Of a stretch of DNA of 64,000 nucleotides, positions 35,089-62,821 are shown piece by piece. A model generated the notes under the pieces. It ran no database searches. It worked only from the letters and a program-made list of their open reading frames with translations, and was not told the origin of the DNA. Source of the stretch: Geobacter sp. AOG1 (GTDB lineage Bacteria > Desulfobacterota > Desulfuromonadia > Geobacterales > Geobacteraceae); contig NZ_BLIZ01000001.1 in assembly GCF_019972315.1 (NCBI RefSeq), positions 2,038,513 through 2,102,512 of the forward strand. Reading direction: 5' to 3'. The position numbers were made by a program, and so were the translations under genes. Positions within the stretch are counted from its first letter, which is position 1, and each line of letters begins with the position of its first letter.

Positions 35089-36024
35089 TCAGCCCAGCGG
35101 TCGTGTGCCGTGAGAGCCGGCAAGGCCGGAGAAGAGGGGGGAAAGGTGGAGCAGCCGCTCTGCCAGGCGGGTGGTTTCATCCAGTACTTTCGGGTCGAGC
35201 CTTTTCAGCCAGCGCCGCGGCACCTGCTCCATTCCGTAGTAGGCCCCCGCCAGCATCCCGGCGATGGCGCCGGTGGTGTCCGCATCACCCCCCTGGTTCA
35301 CCGTCGCCACCACGCACTCCTCGAAACCGGCCGTCCTGAAGAAATGATGGAATACCGTCTGCATGGTGTCAACCACGTAGCCGCTGGCAAGCCCCCGGTA
35401 GGTGTCGAACCCGAAGGTCGGCTGTTCGGCGACGAGTCGGTCCACCTCGCGGCGCAACCGGTTCTTGGAGCGCCCCTGGATCGCCAAATGGACGAGACGG
35501 CCGAGATAGATGCAGGCGGTGTCGGAAAGGGGATGGTTATGGGTGAGGCGGGCCTGGGTTACGGCGCAATCGCTCAAGAGATCGTCGTCTCCCAGGGTGA
35601 AGAGGGACACCGGGGCCATCCGCATGGCTGCGCCATTTCCTGCGTCCCATTGATTGAACGGGGTTTCCAGCATCCCTTTAAGCATGTAGTTGCGGATGCT
35701 GCGACGGCAGGTGTCTCCCACGTCTACCGGCTTGGTTCGGAGCCAGGCTGCGAAGTTGTCGGCAATCCCTTTCAGGTCCCATCCCTGACGTGCATCGAGT
35801 GCCCGGGCGATGCAGAACGCCATTTCCGTGTCGTCGGTCACCTGGCCCGGTTTTAGCCGCAGCCAACCGCCGCCGACGAGGTCGCGGAGCACGCCGTACT
35901 TCGCCCGGATCTCGTGGCTGGTCATGAACTCCACCGGCGCGCCGAGGGCGTCCCCTATTGCCAGGCCGACGAACGCTCCCCGGCTCCGGGAGAGGATGTC
36001 GTGTATGTCAGGGGGAATGGTCAC
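35089..36024 (-). CDS. draG: ADP-ribosylglycohydrolase, DraG-like
   Basis: 311 residues from GTG 36024. The open frame continues to 36141, but that part passes through a 7-nt repeat region and is unlike the family. ILSRSRGAFVGLAIGDALGAPVEFMT, VTDDTEMAFCIARAL and NQGGDADTTGAIAGMLAGAYYG supply the dinuclear-metal aspartates of ADP-ribosylglycohydrolases. DraG removes ADP-ribose from nitrogenase reductase (NifH) to reactivate it. The adjacent divergent nifB supports that role. No DraT gene is in the window. Confidence is high for the family and moderate for the nitrogenase substrate. Confidence 0.8.
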   Translation of the reverse strand: MTIPPDIHDILSRSRGAFVGLAIGDALGAPVEFMTSHEIRAKYGVLRDLVGGGWLRLKPGQVTDDTEMAFCIARALDARQGWDLKGIADNFAAWLRTKPVDVGDTCRRSIRNYMLKGMLETPFNQWDAGNGAAMRMAPVSLFTLGDDDLLSDCAVTQARLTHNHPLSDTACIYLGRLVHLAIQGRSKNRLRREVDRLVAEQPTFGFDTYRGLASGYVVDTMQTVFHHFFRTAGFEECVVATVNQGGDADTTGAIAGMLAGAYYGMEQVPRRWLKRLDPKVLDETTRLAERLLHLSPLFSGLAGSHGTRPLG

Positions 36025-36262
36025 GGGAAGAGAGATGCAATAAACGGACCCCGCGAAGCCCTGATGGACAGGTATTGGCGATCGGGGACCGGTAAGGGCC
36101 GTTTCCCTTCTACAATTCACCATGCGCCCTTCACTGTTCACCGTGTTATTCTGCCCACAAAATAAGCATTGTCCGGAAAATGAGGCAGCGGTCTACCCTT
36201 CATTCCCTCTGGCAGGTTCTGCAACCCAGCTGCTGGTGGGCCTTGGGAACTTAATGAGGTTC

Positions 36263-36278
36263 TGGCACGGATAATGAT
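36263..36278 (+). promoter_or_regulatory. candidate sigma-54 promoter of nifB
   Basis: TGGCACGGATAATGAT has a perfect -24 TGGCACGG and the right spacing, but GA in place of GC at the -12 element. The predicted start is near 36289, directly before the first leader hairpin. Confidence 0.55.
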
Positions 36279-36295
36279 AGGGAGATTGGCAGCAC

Positions 36296-36313
36296 CGGTA
36301 CAAGGAAGTATCG
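36296..36313 (+). promoter_or_regulatory. ANTAR-type hairpin P1 in nifB leader
   Basis: CGGTAC-AAGGAA-GTATCG: a 6-bp stem (one G-U) with a hexaloop that has A at position 1 and G at position 4, as in ANTAR-protein RNA targets. Confidence 0.6.
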
Positions 36314-36315
36314 AA

Positions 36316-36335
36316 CCAGAGGCAACGAAGCCCGG
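36316..36335 (+). promoter_or_regulatory. ANTAR-type hairpin P2 in nifB leader, overlapping terminator 1
   Basis: GGC-AACGAA-GCC plus three further pairs past two bulged A residues. The hexaloop AACGAA has A1 and G4. Its 3' arm (36330-36335) is the 5' arm of terminator 1, so the two folds exclude each other. Confidence 0.6.
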
Positions 36336-36361
36336 CGGGAAGCAGTCCCTCCGGGCTTTTT
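36329..36361 (+). terminator. leader terminator 1 before nifB
   Basis: AGCCCGG (36329-36335) pairs with CCGGGCT (36351-36357), with an inner GGGA/TCCC pairing and a T5 tract. It lies 80 nt before nifB in the untranslated leader, so it acts as an attenuator. Confidence 0.85.
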
Positions 36362-36368
36362 ATTCGGC

Positions 36369-36403
36369 AAAGGCGCTGACCGTAACGGTCGAGCGCCTTT
36401 TTT
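36369..36403 (+). terminator. leader terminator 2 before nifB
   Basis: AAAGGCGCT (36369-36377) pairs with 36392-36400, with an inner GACCG/CGGTC stem and six T residues. A competing hairpin UCGGC-AAAGGC-GCUGA (36364-36379), again with an A1/G4 hexaloop, overlaps its 5' arm. Confidence 0.9.
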
Positions 36404-36440
36404 AGTTGCGGGGAGTGACCCCGCGGGAAGGGAGACAGAG

Positions 36441-37307
36441 ATGGCCACATCGTGCGGCGGACGGAAGAATATCCAGGGGCACCCCTGTTTCGGCGGCAAC
36501 CACCACAAGAACGGCCGGATGCACCTGGCGGTGGCGCCCAAGTGCAACATCAAGTGCGGCTACTGCTCCCGCCGCCACGATTGCGCCAACGAGTCGCGCC
36601 CGGGGGTTACGAGCCAGCTTCTCACTCCCGGGGAGGCAATCGTCAAGGTGCGGGAGGTGATGGCAAGCGAGATCCTCGGCCCGATCATCAAGGTGATCGG
36701 CATTGCCGGGCCGGGGGACCCCCTGGCAAATGAGGAGACCTTCGAAACCTTCCGCCTGGTGAGGAAAGAGTTTCCCCATCTCATAACGTGCATGAGCACC
36801 AACGGCCTCCTCTTGCCGGAGAAGATCGACCTCCTCCAGGAACTTGACCTCCACAGCCTCACCGTGACGGTCAACGCGCTGGACCCGGAAATCGGTGCCA
36901 GGATTTACAGCCACATCCTCTATCACGGCAAAAAATTTACCGGACCGGAAGCGGCGGCCATCCTCAGCGCCAACCAGCTGGAAGGTATCAGGCGGGCAGC
37001 CGACTACGGCATGACCATCAAGGTGAACACCGTCTACATCCCCGGCGTGAACGAGAGCCAGGTGCCGCTCATCGGCACGAAGGTGAAGGAGTTGGGTGCG
37101 TCTGTCATGAACGTCATGCCCCTCATCCCCCAGGCCGACTTCGCCCATGTGGTTCCGCCGACTCAGGAGTTGCTGGAGAATGTGCGGCAGGCCAACGAGC
37201 GGATCATTGGCCAGTTCAAGCACTGCCGCCAGTGCCGGGCGGACGCAGTCGGGCTGATCGGGCGGGATGTGGCACGGGTGGATGCCGGGTGTGTGACAGG
37301 GAGTTGA
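36441..37307 (+). CDS. nifB: NifB-type radical SAM protein (FeMo-cofactor core synthesis)
   Basis: 288 residues. HPCFGGNHHKNGRMHLAVAP, CNIKCGYCSRRHDCANESRPG (radical-SAM cysteines C35, C39, C42), IAGPGDPLANEETF, STNGLLLPEKI and HCRQCRADAVGLIGRD are diagnostic of NifB. It builds the NifB-co 8Fe-9S-C precursor of nitrogenase cofactors. It is the short, single-domain form without the NifX-like C-terminal domain found in Azotobacter. A GNAT gene follows 2 nt after the stop codon. It is preceded by two leader terminators and ANTAR-like hairpins, so expression is probably controlled by antitermination under sigma-54. Confidence 0.95.
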   Translation: MATSCGGRKNIQGHPCFGGNHHKNGRMHLAVAPKCNIKCGYCSRRHDCANESRPGVTSQLLTPGEAIVKVREVMASEILGPIIKVIGIAGPGDPLANEETFETFRLVRKEFPHLITCMSTNGLLLPEKIDLLQELDLHSLTVTVNALDPEIGARIYSHILYHGKKFTGPEAAAILSANQLEGIRRAADYGMTIKVNTVYIPGVNESQVPLIGTKVKELGASVMNVMPLIPQADFAHVVPPTQELLENVRQANERIIGQFKHCRQCRADAVGLIGRDVARVDAGCVTGS

Positions 37308-44725: not shown

Positions 44726-46711
44726 TCAGACCCTGACCCGGATGGGGAGGATGACCGTGGTGATGCCGTCCCACTGGAGGCGGCGCTGGATGGCAAAGGC
44801 GGTCTCGTTGTGGAGCATCTTGTGGTAGAACTTTTCCAGCCGGAAGGTAAGCTGACCGGTGAAGACCGTCGAGCGGGGGAATTCGCCGGCGATCTCTTTG
44901 CAGAGATGCATGGCGCTTTCAACCACATCGGTCGCCACCTCCATCCGGTAGTCGGCGGCGAAGCCGAGGCGGCGGGCCAGGTCAACATACCGTTCGAGCC
45001 CCTTCCTGACCGAATCCTCCAGCGCTACCACCTCCTGCGCCCCCTTGAAGGAGCCGGAGTCGATCACCGCCACCGAGACGAAGATAATGTTCTTGTAGGT
45101 CTTGGGGAAGGTGGTGAGGATGGAGAGCAGCGTATGGACGCCAAAGCCGCTGTAGCCGGAGACGAGCTGGATGGCGGTGGTTTCGTTCGGGTCGAGGGGG
45201 GCGTCGTTGACCGGCCCGGTCGTGGGGAAATCGAGGAGTGTCTCGTCCAGTTGGGCAATCCCCTTGCGCACCTTGACGTAATGGTTTTTGATGAGGTAGC
45301 AGAGGTAGATCACCACCGAGGTGATGACAATGGTCATCCATCCCCCTTCGGCAAATTTTTCCACCGTCGTGATGACGAGAATGGTAACGCAGAGGGTCAG
45401 CCCCACCAGGTGGACGGCGAGGTGCTGCATCCATTTTGGGTCTTCGTGGCGCCGCTTGAGGAAGAAACGGGACATCCCCAGTTGGGAGAGGGAGAAGGTG
45501 ACGAAGACGTTGATGGAGTACATGACCACCAGGGCCGACACCGATCCGCGGGTATAGAGGAGGAGGCCGATGGCGGCCGCCCCCATGAGCACGATGCCGT
45601 TACGCATGGTGAGCCGCTCGGAGAGGGCGGCGAAGCGGTGGGGAAACCAGGAGTCAACCGCCATGTTGGCCATGACCCGCGGGCCGTCCACGAAGCCGGT
45701 CTGGGCCGCAACAAGGAGCAGTGCCCCTTCGGAGAAGATGGTGATGAACGCGACCATCCCCCCCATAGGCCAGTCCGCAAAAAGCCCGTCGGCCAGGACG
45801 GCGTTGAGGGTTTTTCCTTCCACCGGCTTTACATCGAGCAGGGCATAGCAAAGGAACAGTACGCCGGCGGTGAAGGCGAGGGACCCGGCCATGTAGAGCA
45901 TAGTCCGCTTGCCGGTCTGCACCCGTGGCTCCCGCATGATCTGCAGGCCGTTAGAGACCGCCTCGATCCCCGTATAGGTCCCACCCCCCAGTGAGTAGGC
46001 GCGCATGAAGAGGAGGAGAATGCCGAAGAAGCCTATGGTGGAGAGATCCTGGTGAATTCCGGTCTGGAAACCACTTGCCAGCGGGGCGAACCGGGCGGTG
46101 TGGGTGAAGATTCCGTCCAGCAGCATGAGGAGGTGGGTGACCACGAAGACGATGAAGATCGGCGCCATGACAGTGATGGATTCCTTCACCCCGCGGATGT
46201 TGAGGACGATGAGGACAAGGGCAAGAAAACAGGCGAAGGGGACCTTGTAGTGGGCGGCGGCGAGGGGAAGGTAGCTGAACACCGCGTCGACGCAGGCGGC
46301 GATGGAGACGGTGATGGTCAGTATGTAGTCCACCAGGAGGGCGCTACCGGAGACGACCCCCGCCTTCTCCCCGAGCATGTGGGTAGCGACGATGTATCCG
46401 CCGCCGCCGTGGGGAAAGTGTTCGATGATCCTCGAATAGGCGTAGGAGATGATGAAGACCGTCAAAGCCGTGGCCAGCCCGAGCATGACGGCGAGGTAGG
46501 CATGCGACCCCAAAGCCCGGAAGGCTTCTTCGGGGCCGTAGGCGGATGACGACAGGCCGTCGGCGCCGAGCCCGATCCAGGCGAGCACCGGAATCAGGGA
46601 CATCTTGTGGAACAGATGGGGGTCCTTGATCTGTTTGGGGGCGCCGATGATGGCGCGCCAGATACGGACGAAGATGCCGGGTTGTTCTTCTACAGGGTCA
46701 TTCGCGTTCAT
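44726..46711 (-). CDS. KimA-like potassium transporter (APC superfamily)
   Basis: 661 residues with about 12 transmembrane helices in the first 450 residues (GLGADGLSSSAYGPEEAFRALG, YIVATHMLGEKAG, LVDYILTITVSIAACVDAV) and a roughly 190-residue cytosolic C-terminal domain. The pattern and size fit the KimA (YdaO) family of proton-coupled potassium importers, which bind c-di-AMP in their cytosolic domain. A c-di-AMP riboswitch with a terminator lies directly upstream, and kdp genes follow on the same strand. The ribosome-binding site is GGAGG before ATG 46711. The identity as a K+ importer is inference from the family, the riboswitch and the kdp context. Confidence 0.82.
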   Translation of the reverse strand: MNANDPVEEQPGIFVRIWRAIIGAPKQIKDPHLFHKMSLIPVLAWIGLGADGLSSSAYGPEEAFRALGSHAYLAVMLGLATALTVFIISYAYSRIIEHFPHGGGGYIVATHMLGEKAGVVSGSALLVDYILTITVSIAACVDAVFSYLPLAAAHYKVPFACFLALVLIVLNIRGVKESITVMAPIFIVFVVTHLLMLLDGIFTHTARFAPLASGFQTGIHQDLSTIGFFGILLLFMRAYSLGGGTYTGIEAVSNGLQIMREPRVQTGKRTMLYMAGSLAFTAGVLFLCYALLDVKPVEGKTLNAVLADGLFADWPMGGMVAFITIFSEGALLLVAAQTGFVDGPRVMANMAVDSWFPHRFAALSERLTMRNGIVLMGAAAIGLLLYTRGSVSALVVMYSINVFVTFSLSQLGMSRFFLKRRHEDPKWMQHLAVHLVGLTLCVTILVITTVEKFAEGGWMTIVITSVVIYLCYLIKNHYVKVRKGIAQLDETLLDFPTTGPVNDAPLDPNETTAIQLVSGYSGFGVHTLLSILTTFPKTYKNIIFVSVAVIDSGSFKGAQEVVALEDSVRKGLERYVDLARRLGFAADYRMEVATDVVESAMHLCKEIAGEFPRSTVFTGQLTFRLEKFYHKMLHNETAFAIQRRLQWDGITTVILPIRVRV

Positions 46712-46839: not shown

Positions 46840-46987
46840 ACTTGCCCTTCCACACGCCTACGAGGTTAGCTGACGGGCTAGGACTTGAAAGTATCCTTTT
46901 CAGGTTCCTCACGACGCTGGGAGGTCACTGAAATTCGCCCCAAAAACTTGGGTCCCCCGCACCTGCTCTTCGTTGAGCGGGTCTCGG
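46840..46987 (-). promoter_or_regulatory. c-di-AMP (ydaO-yuaA) riboswitch aptamer
   Basis: The minus strand shows the ydaO-yuaA hallmarks in order: GCGGGGGACCCAAG, TTTTTGGGGCGAATT, then CCGTCAGCTAACCTCGTAGG with CGTGTGGAAGG. These are the most conserved parts of this riboswitch class. In most known examples c-di-AMP binding promotes termination. It lies just upstream of the terminator and the KimA-like transporter. I recognise it from motif memory; no alignment was run. Confidence 0.9.
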
Positions 46988-47029
46988 CTGCATAATTATC
47001 GAATAATACTTGTTCGCAAACTCTAAGAG

Positions 47030-58816: not shown

Positions 58817-58832
58817 TGGCACGGCTTGTGCT
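58817..58832 (+). promoter_or_regulatory. sigma-54 promoter of the outer-membrane protein gene
   Basis: TGGCACGGCTTGTGCT has a perfect TGGCACGG -24 element and GC at the -12 position (10-nt spacing). The predicted start is near 58843. Confidence 0.75.
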
Positions 58833-58883
58833 AAAAGGTTCGCAGCTGATACGCACGATGACGTGCGCATAAACTGGATTCGT

Positions 58884-58901
58884 AAAGGCAAAGGCGCCTT
58901 T
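58884..58901 (+). promoter_or_regulatory. ANTAR-type antiterminator hairpin
   Basis: AAAGGC-AAAGGC-GCCTTT: a perfect 6-bp stem with an A1/G4 hexaloop. It overlaps the 5' arm of the following terminator (58890-58899), so only one can form. The loop equals that of the second nifB leader hairpin. Confidence 0.65.
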
Positions 58902-58935
58902 CACCCCCCTCTCAGGGGGTGGAGGCGCCTTTTTT
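58890..58935 (+). terminator. leader terminator before the outer-membrane protein gene
   Basis: AAAGGCGCCT (58890-58899) pairs perfectly with 58923-58932, with an inner CACCCCC/GGGGGTG stem and a T6 tract. It lies between the sigma-54 promoter and the gene. Confidence 0.92.
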
Positions 58936-58980: not shown

Positions 58981-59784
58981 ATGACGAAGATGACAAGAAT
59001 CGCAGGCATGGCAATGGCGCTGTTCGTGGCAACCACCGGTGTTGCTCTCGCGACCCCCTCCACCCAGATTTGGATCCCGTCCACCGATATCCAGCCCTAC
59101 AAAGTGGTCCACCTCGGTATCGACAACTACTTCCGCGCCTCCGGGGTTCCGAAAGCCACCAGCGCTACCCGGGACGCCAACGTCATGGACATCGGTCCGA
59201 CCGTCGGCATCCTCCCCTTCGATAAAGTGCAGATGGAAGTCGGCTTCGACTACCTCGCCATCGCCAACGATCCGAACGACAACCATCCGTTCAGCGGAAA
59301 CTTCAAGATCGGCACCCCTGAAGACTCCATCTTCAAATATTCCCCGGCCATTGCGGTCGGTATGTACAACGTTGGACCGTCCCAGGGAGCTAACGCCCCG
59401 GGAATCGTCTCAGGACAGAACATCGCCTATGCGCTGATCGCCAAGACCCTCCCCGAAATGGGCAAGATTCCCTCCCTCGGCAGGATATCCGCCGGCTACT
59501 ATCGCGGTGCCAAGGGCGCCCTGGTGGATGCGAACAATTTCAATAAAGCCGCGAACGACGGCGTCCTCCTCTCCTGGGACCGGACCATGAGCGAGATCTC
59601 CGACAAGCTCTGGATGGCGGTCGACTACATGGGGGGAAACAACGTGGACGGCGCGTTGAACCTCGGTTTCTCCTGGGCGTTTTCCAAGAACGTCTCCGTG
59701 ATCTTTGCCTATGACATCTATAAAGAGAAGGCGCTGGCCGGTAACAACACCTTTACTACCCAGCTGGACATCAACTTCCCCTGA
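58981..59784 (+). CDS. nitrogen-regulated outer-membrane beta-barrel protein
   Basis: 267 residues from ATG 58981, preceded by AAAGGAGTAAG. A signal peptide (cleavage at ALA) and alternating beta strands with aromatic ends characterise it (MEVGFDYLAIANDPND, RISAGYYRGAKGALVD, VSVIFAYDIYKEKALAGNNT), with terminal residues QLDINFP. The barrel is small. It resembles uncharacterised outer-membrane proteins of Geobacter. The leader (sigma-54 promoter, terminator with ANTAR-type hairpin) and the adjacent glnK-amtB suggest synthesis under nitrogen limitation, perhaps as a nutrient porin. The substrate is unknown. Confidence 0.72.
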   Translation: MTKMTRIAGMAMALFVATTGVALATPSTQIWIPSTDIQPYKVVHLGIDNYFRASGVPKATSATRDANVMDIGPTVGILPFDKVQMEVGFDYLAIANDPNDNHPFSGNFKIGTPEDSIFKYSPAIAVGMYNVGPSQGANAPGIVSGQNIAYALIAKTLPEMGKIPSLGRISAGYYRGAKGALVDANNFNKAANDGVLLSWDRTMSEISDKLWMAVDYMGGNNVDGALNLGFSWAFSKNVSVIFAYDIYKEKALAGNNTFTTQLDINFP

Positions 59785-61989: not shown

Positions 61990-62005
61990 TGGCACAGCTT
62001 ATGCC
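61990..62005 (+). promoter_or_regulatory. sigma-54 promoter of the histidine kinase gene
   Basis: TGGCACAGCTTATGCC has GG at 61991-61992 and GC at 62003-62004, 10 nt apart. Confidence 0.7.
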
Positions 62006-62071: not shown

Positions 62072-62821
62072 ATGCTGATGAGCCATCCCCTTGCCAAATA
62101 CGTGAACGATGGTGGCCCTATCCCGGAGGAGCTGCTGGAGCAGCTCGCCTTCAGCGAAAAGATGGCGGAGATCGGCCAACTGGCCGCAGGGATGATCCAC
62201 GAGCTCAACACCCCCCTCTCGGTGATTGTCTCCGCTGCCCAGATGATCATGCGCGAAGAGGAGCTGCCGGAGTTCGTCCGGGAGATGGTGGAACGGATCG
62301 ATCAGGAGGCCCAGCGCCTCTCCCAGTTCACCAAGGGGCTCCTGACCTTTGCCCGTCGTGATGATGACGCCGGACGGGATGCCGACATCAACCAGGTGCT
62401 CCGGGAGGTGATGACGTTCCTAAAATACGAGGCGCAGAAACGCTCCATCACGGTCGTCGAGGAGCTGGATTTCCATCTTCCCTCCGTGGCTGCCGATGGG
62501 AACCGCCTGAAGCAGGTTTTTATCAACCTGGTGATGAATGCCCTGCAGGCGATGGAGCAGGGTGGGACGCTGCTGGTGCGGACCGCCATTGCTCCGGACG
62601 GTTCGGTGGAGGCGCAGATCGCAGATACCGGACCGGGGATCGTACCGGCGGTGCTGCCGCGTATTTTCGAGCCGTTCTATTCCACCAAGGCTGCCGGTGA
62701 GGGGACCGGCCTCGGTCTCTTCATCACTCGGACCATCGTGGAACTGATGGGGGGGCGGATCATGGTGCGGAGCGTCGAGGGAGAAGGGACAACCTTTACC
62801 ACCATCATCCCTTCCGCCTGA
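62072..62821 (+). CDS. soluble NtrB-like histidine kinase, possibly GnfK-type
   Basis: 249 residues from ATG 62072 (or 62078), with AGGA upstream. No transmembrane helix and no PAS domain are visible. HisKA carries GMIHELNTPLSVI, and the ATPase domain has NLVMNALQAMEQGG, DTGPGI, FEPFYSTKAAGEGTGLGLFITR. It is a short cytosolic kinase without a linked response regulator in the window. Its sigma-54-type promoter and position after amtB suggest a nitrogen role. In G. sulfurreducens GnfK phosphorylates the antiterminator GnfR and is itself sigma-54 activated; this identity is inference. Confidence 0.8.
   Translation: MLMSHPLAKYVNDGGPIPEELLEQLAFSEKMAEIGQLAAGMIHELNTPLSVIVSAAQMIMREEELPEFVREMVERIDQEAQRLSQFTKGLLTFARRDDDAGRDADINQVLREVMTFLKYEAQKRSITVVEELDFHLPSVAADGNRLKQVFINLVMNALQAMEQGGTLLVRTAIAPDGSVEAQIADTGPGIVPAVLPRIFEPFYSTKAAGEGTGLGLFITRTIVELMGGRIMVRSVEGEGTTFTTIIPSA

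Follow-up and report, generated by a model that had tools for sequence, protein, structure and literature searches.

In Geobacter sulfurreducens a subset of nif genes is reportedly controlled by GnfK/GnfR antitermination, which Ueki and Lovley are said to have described in 2010. For the ANTAR protein EutV, excerpts of a study name R142, K143, K147, Y164 and M172 as RNA contacts and state that antitermination needs both hexaloops, though the binding unit is one hexaloop; a passage of its discussion calls for bioinformatics on single-hexaloop sites (PMC8934654). The linker between the two hexaloop hairpins is given as 5–12 nt for eut (PMC3369931, in part) and as 2–25 nt for ANTAR hairpins (PMC8164766, in part). 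Excerpts of PMC3369931 also list a predicted nif ANTAR regulon of Pelobacter carbinolicus with three transcription units for nitrogenase function, and at least 13 serial ANTAR attenuators in six transcription units of Desulfotomaculum acetoxidans. In the literature titles and abstracts listed, a scope outside which most subscription journals fall, we found no description of a single-hexaloop antiterminator or of an ANTAR nifB leader. The sole paper matching both ANTAR and nifB deals, according to the part available, with plant-growth bacteria (PMC12169014).

The window analysed here is a stretch of 64,000 nt from Geobacter sp. AOG1, with nifB at 36441–37307 on the forward strand, as are all parts of the leaders described below. 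The nifB frame matches positions 7–281 of the 441 positions of TIGR01290 with 322 bits, slightly below the cut-off of 343.65 bits. A first-pass annotation had placed a sigma-54-type promoter, two hairpins (P1, P2), a terminator (T1), a third hairpin (P3) and a second terminator (T2) ahead of this gene, and each of them was found there. The sigma-54-type site TGGCACGGATAATGAT (36263–36278) carries a degenerate −12 element, TGA instead of TGC, and its predicted +1 is 36289. With up to two mismatches the sigma-54 pattern matches 34 times in the whole window, not above chance (shuffle mean 28.0), and support for the site therefore comes from its regular spacing to P1 and P2 in relatives. A scan of 35900–36700 for sigma-70-type promoters gave none, and a simple terminator scan of the same interval reported only a five-pair piece of T1 and missed T2. 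An Rfam search of 35800–36600 yielded three matches, every one below the gathering score, leaving the leader without an Rfam family at that score. The only such match of the window is a c-di-AMP riboswitch elsewhere (RF00379, 80.8 bits, 46840–46999, reverse strand), which precedes a 661-aa ORF (44726–46711) with a weak amino acid transporter match.

P1 (CGGUAC-AAGGAA-GUAUCG, 36296–36313) and P2 (GGC-AACGAA-GCC, 36321–36332) are adjacent hairpins of six and three base pairs, and each exposes a six-base loop with A1 and G4. The pair thus shows the anatomy of ANTAR dual-hexaloop RNA, that is neighbouring hexaloop hairpins with stems of 3 bp or more, and the 7-nt linker (36314–36320) lies within the published ANTAR range. 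P2 is the predicted antiterminator of T1 (36328–36361; helix 36328–36358, U-tract 36357–36361), whose 5′ arm takes in the 3′ arm of P2 together with loop positions 5 and 6. In the same manner the 3′ arm of P3 (UCGGC-AAAGGC-GCUGA, 36364–36379; 5 bp, A1/G4 hexaloop) falls inside the 5′ arm of T2 (36370–36403; helix 36370–36399, U-tract 36398–36403). Both overlaps had been claimed before and are borne out by the letters and by folding. The isolated hairpins have energies of −4.9 (P1), −2.8 (P2), −21.8 (T1), −4.9 (P3) and −20.3 kcal mol−1 (T2), and 36263–36460 folds with z=−3.2 versus shuffles. Folding with and without P2 makes P2 and T1 mutually exclusive on paper. The free fold of −53.9 kcal mol−1 rises to −44.3 kcal mol−1 with P1 and P2 forced and to −33.1 kcal mol−1 with P3 forced in addition. 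From these costs of 9.6 and 20.8 kcal mol−1 it follows that a protein would have to act co-transcriptionally, before the terminators fold. Under the P1 and P2 constraints, what is left of T1 forms a short hairpin (36333–36353) that ends about 10 nt ahead of P3, so that the step from P2 to P3 resembles that from P1 to P2.

For comparison across relatives, the best 80 of 184 loci from a NifB search of the genome collection were kept. After omission of L067 and L081, where nifB begins at the contig end, 78 of them and the window formed a sample of 79 leaders, mostly from metagenome-assembled genomes of Geobacter-like bacteria. Fixed strict criteria for P2 plus terminator, which ask for an A1/G4 hexaloop hairpin with its 3′ arm inside a terminator, were passed by 64 of 75 real leaders compared to a mean of 0.0 in 100 shuffles each, by none of 5000 dinucleotide shuffles of the window leader (last 200 nt before nifB) and by none of the four paralogous nifB leaders; a stricter dual-hairpin criterion was passed by 19 of the 75. 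Only P2/T1 is counted in this way. A bulge in its stem makes P3/T2 fail the criteria, and support for that unit comes from conservation instead. The second-copy nifB leaders L022, L029, L079 and L080 lack the ANTAR motif; by eye they show a small CCAG/CTGG hairpin with an A-rich loop abutting a terminator of the type AGG...CCTTTT, possibly another attenuator.

P2 could be extracted by pattern in 69 of the 79 leaders, 54 of which were aligned. Since this pattern fixes A1 and G4, the search was repeated with any six-base loop. A terminator-overlapping hairpin then appeared in 65 of 75 leaders, and 56 of the loops had A1 and G4. By reading, the remaining nine are out-of-register picks, and ten leaders have no hairpin under those criteria. 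In L078 the first loop position of P2 is G. The T1 helix (11 pairs) contains 99 cells changed on both sides compared to a shuffle mean of 34.6. Loop position 6 of P2 pairs inside T1 (A-U 19, C-G 16, U-A 6; unpaired in 7 of 53) and covaries with the base after the 3′ arm of T1, showing that hexaloop and terminator stem are interlocked. Those loop positions that the terminator uses show paired variation, in contrast to positions 1 and 4. Similarly, the P1 stem has 22 two-sided cells in 23 aligned leaders (shuffle mean 6.5). By reading, 22 of these keep G4 in its loop (L020 has A), and the loop begins with A in 18 and with G in five (L004, L005, L009, L010, L055). The first-pass annotation had tied its proposal of ANTAR antitermination to conserved A1/G4 loops in orthologous leaders and to the presence of an ANTAR regulator in the genome. 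The P2 loop is indeed kept and one ANTAR response regulator is encoded, and, along with the rarity of P2 plus terminator in shuffles and the covariation of T1 and P1, this supports the proposal.

Anchored on the sigma-54-type site, the distance from start to P2 could be scored in 66 of the 79 leaders; four of the 13 unscored ones belong to paralogous nifB copies without the motif, and a doubtful promoter match underlies the value for L023. The predicted +1 lies 4–8 nt before P2 in 30 leaders, 12–14 nt in two, 27–33 nt in twenty-six, 41–49 nt in seven and 67 nt in one. The order of sigma-54-type site, hexaloop/terminator unit and start codon is the same in all 66. In the class of 27–33 nt, 24 of 26 leaders have a hairpin of at least 4 bp at the place of P1, and L007 and L008 have one of 3 bp. 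The two large classes mean that the spacing is mostly either too short for P1 or fitting P1, and 4–8 nt before P2 leaves no room for P1. A dual-motif model (R2), applied to 42 sources, revealed no hidden P1 further upstream in the short class. The best short-class nifB leader, L021, reached 22.4 bits with promoter letters used as an arm, and the others stayed at or below 16 bits compared to 45–47 bits for three true dual leaders. L215–L217, matching at 17–20 bits, are nifH leaders with the P1 loop GCTGCA. By eye, TGCA-type repeats recur on the 5′ side of the sigma-54-type sites, for example in L028, L053 and L061; they lie about 100–200 nt ahead of the start codon region and are possibly an activator site.

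A single ANTAR protein was detected in the genome. It has 190 aa and consists of a receiver and an ANTAR domain; its best PDB matches are Rv1626 (2.5e-48) and EutV (2.6e-33). Judging from the alignment, it carries the RNA-contact residues: R142, K143, K147, Y164 and M172 of EutV correspond to R, K, R, F and M, that is with Arg for K147 and Phe for Y164. Over 60 proteins (one counted twice) R142, K143 and M172 do not vary, the position of K147 has K in 51 and R in 9, and that of Y164 has F in 32 and Y in 28. In 10 of 60 regulators of relatives the alignment shows no Asp at the phosphoacceptor position. Tyr in 28 of 30 genomes with short- or long-spaced leaders and Phe in 30 of 30 of family f1 (a tally that includes one place twice, as L116 and L142) was considered as an explanation and rejected, as the residue follows family lines; the P1-less leader L073, which by its coordinates sits in an f1 genome, also argues against such a link.

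A survey of 141 genomes of the order, with strict filters and thus not exhaustive, gave the P2+T1 element in 97 and an ANTAR protein in 129. The protein is present in 95 of the 97 element-positive genomes, and 34 of the 129 ANTAR-positive genomes have no P2+T1 match at E 1e-4. Two near-complete genomes with P1, P2 and T1, G094 and G095 (by coordinates those of L014, Geobacter argillaceus, and of L013), gave no PF03861 match. When they were searched with the AOG1 regulator, the best of the matches listed had E 1.9e-15 and 28–36% identity, mainly across the receiver; a few extend to residues 180–182, and two frames examined are a receiver-kinase and a receiver-AAA protein. An ANTAR protein occurs in all 36 tested genomes with short- or long-spaced nifB leaders; the test covered 28 of the 30 leaders with 4–8 nt, the two with 12–14 nt and six of the seven with 41–49 nt. 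Within 2.5 kb 5′ of nifB its gene is found at 28 of 79 loci, namely 22 of the short class, five of the long class and the unscored L034 (a weak match).

With the P2+T1 model (R1) two strong full-length matches were obtained in the AOG1 genome, the nifB leader with 50.5 bits and a nifV leader with 37.1 bits. Because the window leader contributed to R1 and R2, their scores for it are not independent. A third model (R3), made from 27 P1-less short-class leaders only and run over 108 kb, nevertheless marks both leaders, that of nifB at 36321–36362 with 34.1 bits and that of nifV with 41.3 bits. A further R3 match, L175 (34.2 bits), which R1 had also picked up, is a false positive, an ordinary terminator after an unrelated gene with GGCA followed by AAGCCC and no hexaloop. 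The R1 matches L180 and L183 were dropped after reading, and half-matches of R1 (positions 8–39) were left out. R2 showed no further site clearly above background over the genome; this search missed the second leader of the window, described below, and is hence not exhaustive. From 20 family matches taken by place, eight nifV leaders and one nifH leader were used. L219, L221, L224–L229 and L232–L234, mostly ends of unrelated genes, were not; L219 has no gene within its 762 nt, and L221 contains a NifB/NifV chimera-like frame.

The nif cluster of AOG1 comprises nifV, nifH, nifD, nifK, fused nifEN and nifX, with nifE and nifN joined in one 918-aa frame (ORF 1235686–1238440, NF011047; L239). In its 32 kb the nifV leader has the sole forward sigma-54-type match close before any nif gene. 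It is P1-less, with 17 nt from the predicted start to its only hexaloop. The nifV leaders of eight other genomes have 13–32 nt before the hexaloop and no clear A1/G4 hexaloop P1, though in L218 a hairpin of six pairs and a loop of seven bases can form. In the nifV-nifH gap of AOG1 (G000, L239) a GGC-AAAGGC-GCC hexaloop is left, next to a terminator that looks decayed, and a sigma-54-type match is absent; relatives carry a dual nifH leader at the place of this remnant. Upstream of the cluster, at about 1222000–1228000 of G000:C1 (L239), lies a CRISPR-like array with repeats of the type GGTTCATCCCCGCTCGTGCGGGGAACAC.

A second dual-hexaloop leader, as read from the sequence, is located in the same window at 58817–58935 before a porin-like gene. 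Behind a sigma-54-type site TGGCACGGCTTGTGCT (58817–58832; predicted +1 58843) follow P1 (CGCAC-GATGAC-GTGCG, 58852–58867), a hexaloop with G1 and G4, then P2 (GGC-AAAGGC-GCC, 58887–58898; A1/G4) and a terminator that starts inside P2 (58890–58935). Since G1 and C6 can pair, the free fold of this P1 prefers a tetraloop. R2 marks 58851–58898 with 14.9 bits, 34 nt behind the first base of the sigma-54-type site, and the folding z is −4.66. An exact match to GGCAAAGGCGCC-N(8-38)-GGCGCCTTTT is present in 37 of 48 family genomes and absent from the reversed control. The 30 loci with a leader of this type hold a relative of the porin-like protein (16), nifH (9) or neither (5), and an ANTAR-regulator gene lies upstream of the nifH leader in 3 of the 30. 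The protein itself (267 aa, 58981–59784) has an apparent signal peptide and is porin-like by eye only, with no Pfam or NCBIfam match. Leader and gene sit between modABC-like genes and glnK-amtB. Behind amtB, a histidine kinase (62072–62821, own sigma-54-type site at 61990) is by position only a candidate for GnfK, the partner kinase of the ANTAR regulator. This leader, the P1-less relatives and the conservation of P3/T2 in close relatives go beyond the first-pass annotation.

Taken together, the nifB leader is very probably a nitrogen-regulated ANTAR-type transcription attenuator. Sigma-54 RNA polymerase would start near 36289. As long as no regulator is active, T1 would form in the nascent RNA, with T2 as a backup, and transcription would stop before nifB. 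Under nitrogen limitation a GnfR-type ANTAR dimer, presumably phosphorylated by a GnfK-type kinase, would bind the hexaloops, load on P1 and then hold P2, so that the base of T1 could not form; holding P3 in turn would keep T2 from forming. Some features weigh against this reading, namely the energy cost of forcing the hexaloop hairpins, the absence of a detectable ANTAR protein from G094 and G095, the degenerate −12 element, the P2 of only 3 bp, the Asp not aligned in some of the regulators, the ANTAR-positive genomes without a P2+T1 match and a P3 without a P1 of its own nearby. If T1 and T2 were constitutive terminators, for instance at the end of a short sRNA or as a brake for nifB, the hexaloops would be by-products of the terminator-stem sequences. 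The 3′ arms of P2 and P3 and loop positions 5–6 do lie inside these stems, and G094 and G095 retain the leader. We consider this improbable, as loop positions 1–4 and the 5′ arm GGC of P2, as well as P1 and the TTCGGC before P3, are conserved or covary outside the terminator stems, and the unit lies between sigma-54-type site and start codon in the 66 scored leaders. That a regulator other than GnfR reads the hexaloops, for which the same two genomes could speak, is less probable still and hardly to be expected, with the A1/G4 hexaloop as the published ANTAR signature (excerpts of PMC3369931 and PMC8934654) and an ANTAR protein in each of the 36 tested genomes with short- or long-spaced nifB leaders, in many of them near nifB.

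The extent of ANTAR control is less clear-cut. GnfR could act through P1, P2 and T1 only, with P3/T2 as a plain backup terminator beyond its action. In accordance with this, no P1 precedes P3 at a distance in the published range, and among 80 leaders scanned a second terminator behind T1 occurs only in the window, L002–L006 and L084. Yet in six of these seven TTCGGC-AA(A/G)GGC-GCTGAC is kept, with A1, G4 and an arm, TTCGGC, that lies outside the T2 stem (L006 has the loop only, without stem), and the P3 loop AAAGGC recurs as that of P2 in the family's nifH and porin-like leaders. Part of the P3 conservation follows from letters common with T2. A terminator that cannot be relieved would, moreover, hold nifB low unless leaky. 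We therefore rate a plain backup as unlikely, though less so than the two explanations above. The broader proposal goes further: one hexaloop would suffice for ANTAR antitermination, as suggested by a predicted start 4–17 nt before the sole hexaloop in 30 of 66 scored nifB leaders and likewise ahead of nifV in AOG1, and the ANTAR dimer would pass from P1 via P2 to P3 and so clear two serial terminators. We put this forward tentatively, at somewhat less than even chances. The 30 short nifB leaders, the nifV leader and P3/T2 lack a P1 of their own before the antiterminator hairpin. We accordingly do not count them among the dual-hexaloop kind and regard them as a variant with possibly the same mode of action. 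If the single-hexaloop reading is true, the published requirement for two hexaloops would not hold for P1-less leaders, and it is these relatives that would surprise a specialist. The leaders of Geobacterales look like natural one-, two- and three-hexaloop versions before the same gene, in genomes that mostly encode just one ANTAR protein, and this makes the role of P1 directly testable. The nifB leader also offers a defined leader for studying the control of nitrogen fixation in these bacteria.

Compared to known systems, the reported GnfK/GnfR pair of the relative G. sulfurreducens likewise places an ANTAR response regulator over a subset of nif genes; of its parts, a receiver-ANTAR regulator is present here, and the histidine kinase named above is a candidate partner by position only. 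With EutV/eutP of Enterococcus faecalis the locus has in common two A1/G4 hexaloop hairpins, a P2 overlapping the terminator and a receiver-ANTAR protein, as far as excerpts of PMC3369931 and PMC8934654 describe that system. It differs in the third hexaloop over a second terminator, in serving nitrogen fixation instead of ethanolamine use and in the aromatic contact, which is Phe here and Tyr in EutV. The predicted nif regulon of P. carbinolicus likewise consists of ANTAR RNAs (PMC3369931, in part). D. acetoxidans also has more than one ANTAR attenuator per unit; according to the excerpt, these were found with a dual-hairpin model, whereas P3 stands here without a P1. The match to published dual-hexaloop RNAs, the reported control of nif genes by GnfR and the predicted P. 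carbinolicus regulon make the core of the nifB leader one of a known kind, to which an extra hexaloop-terminator unit is added.
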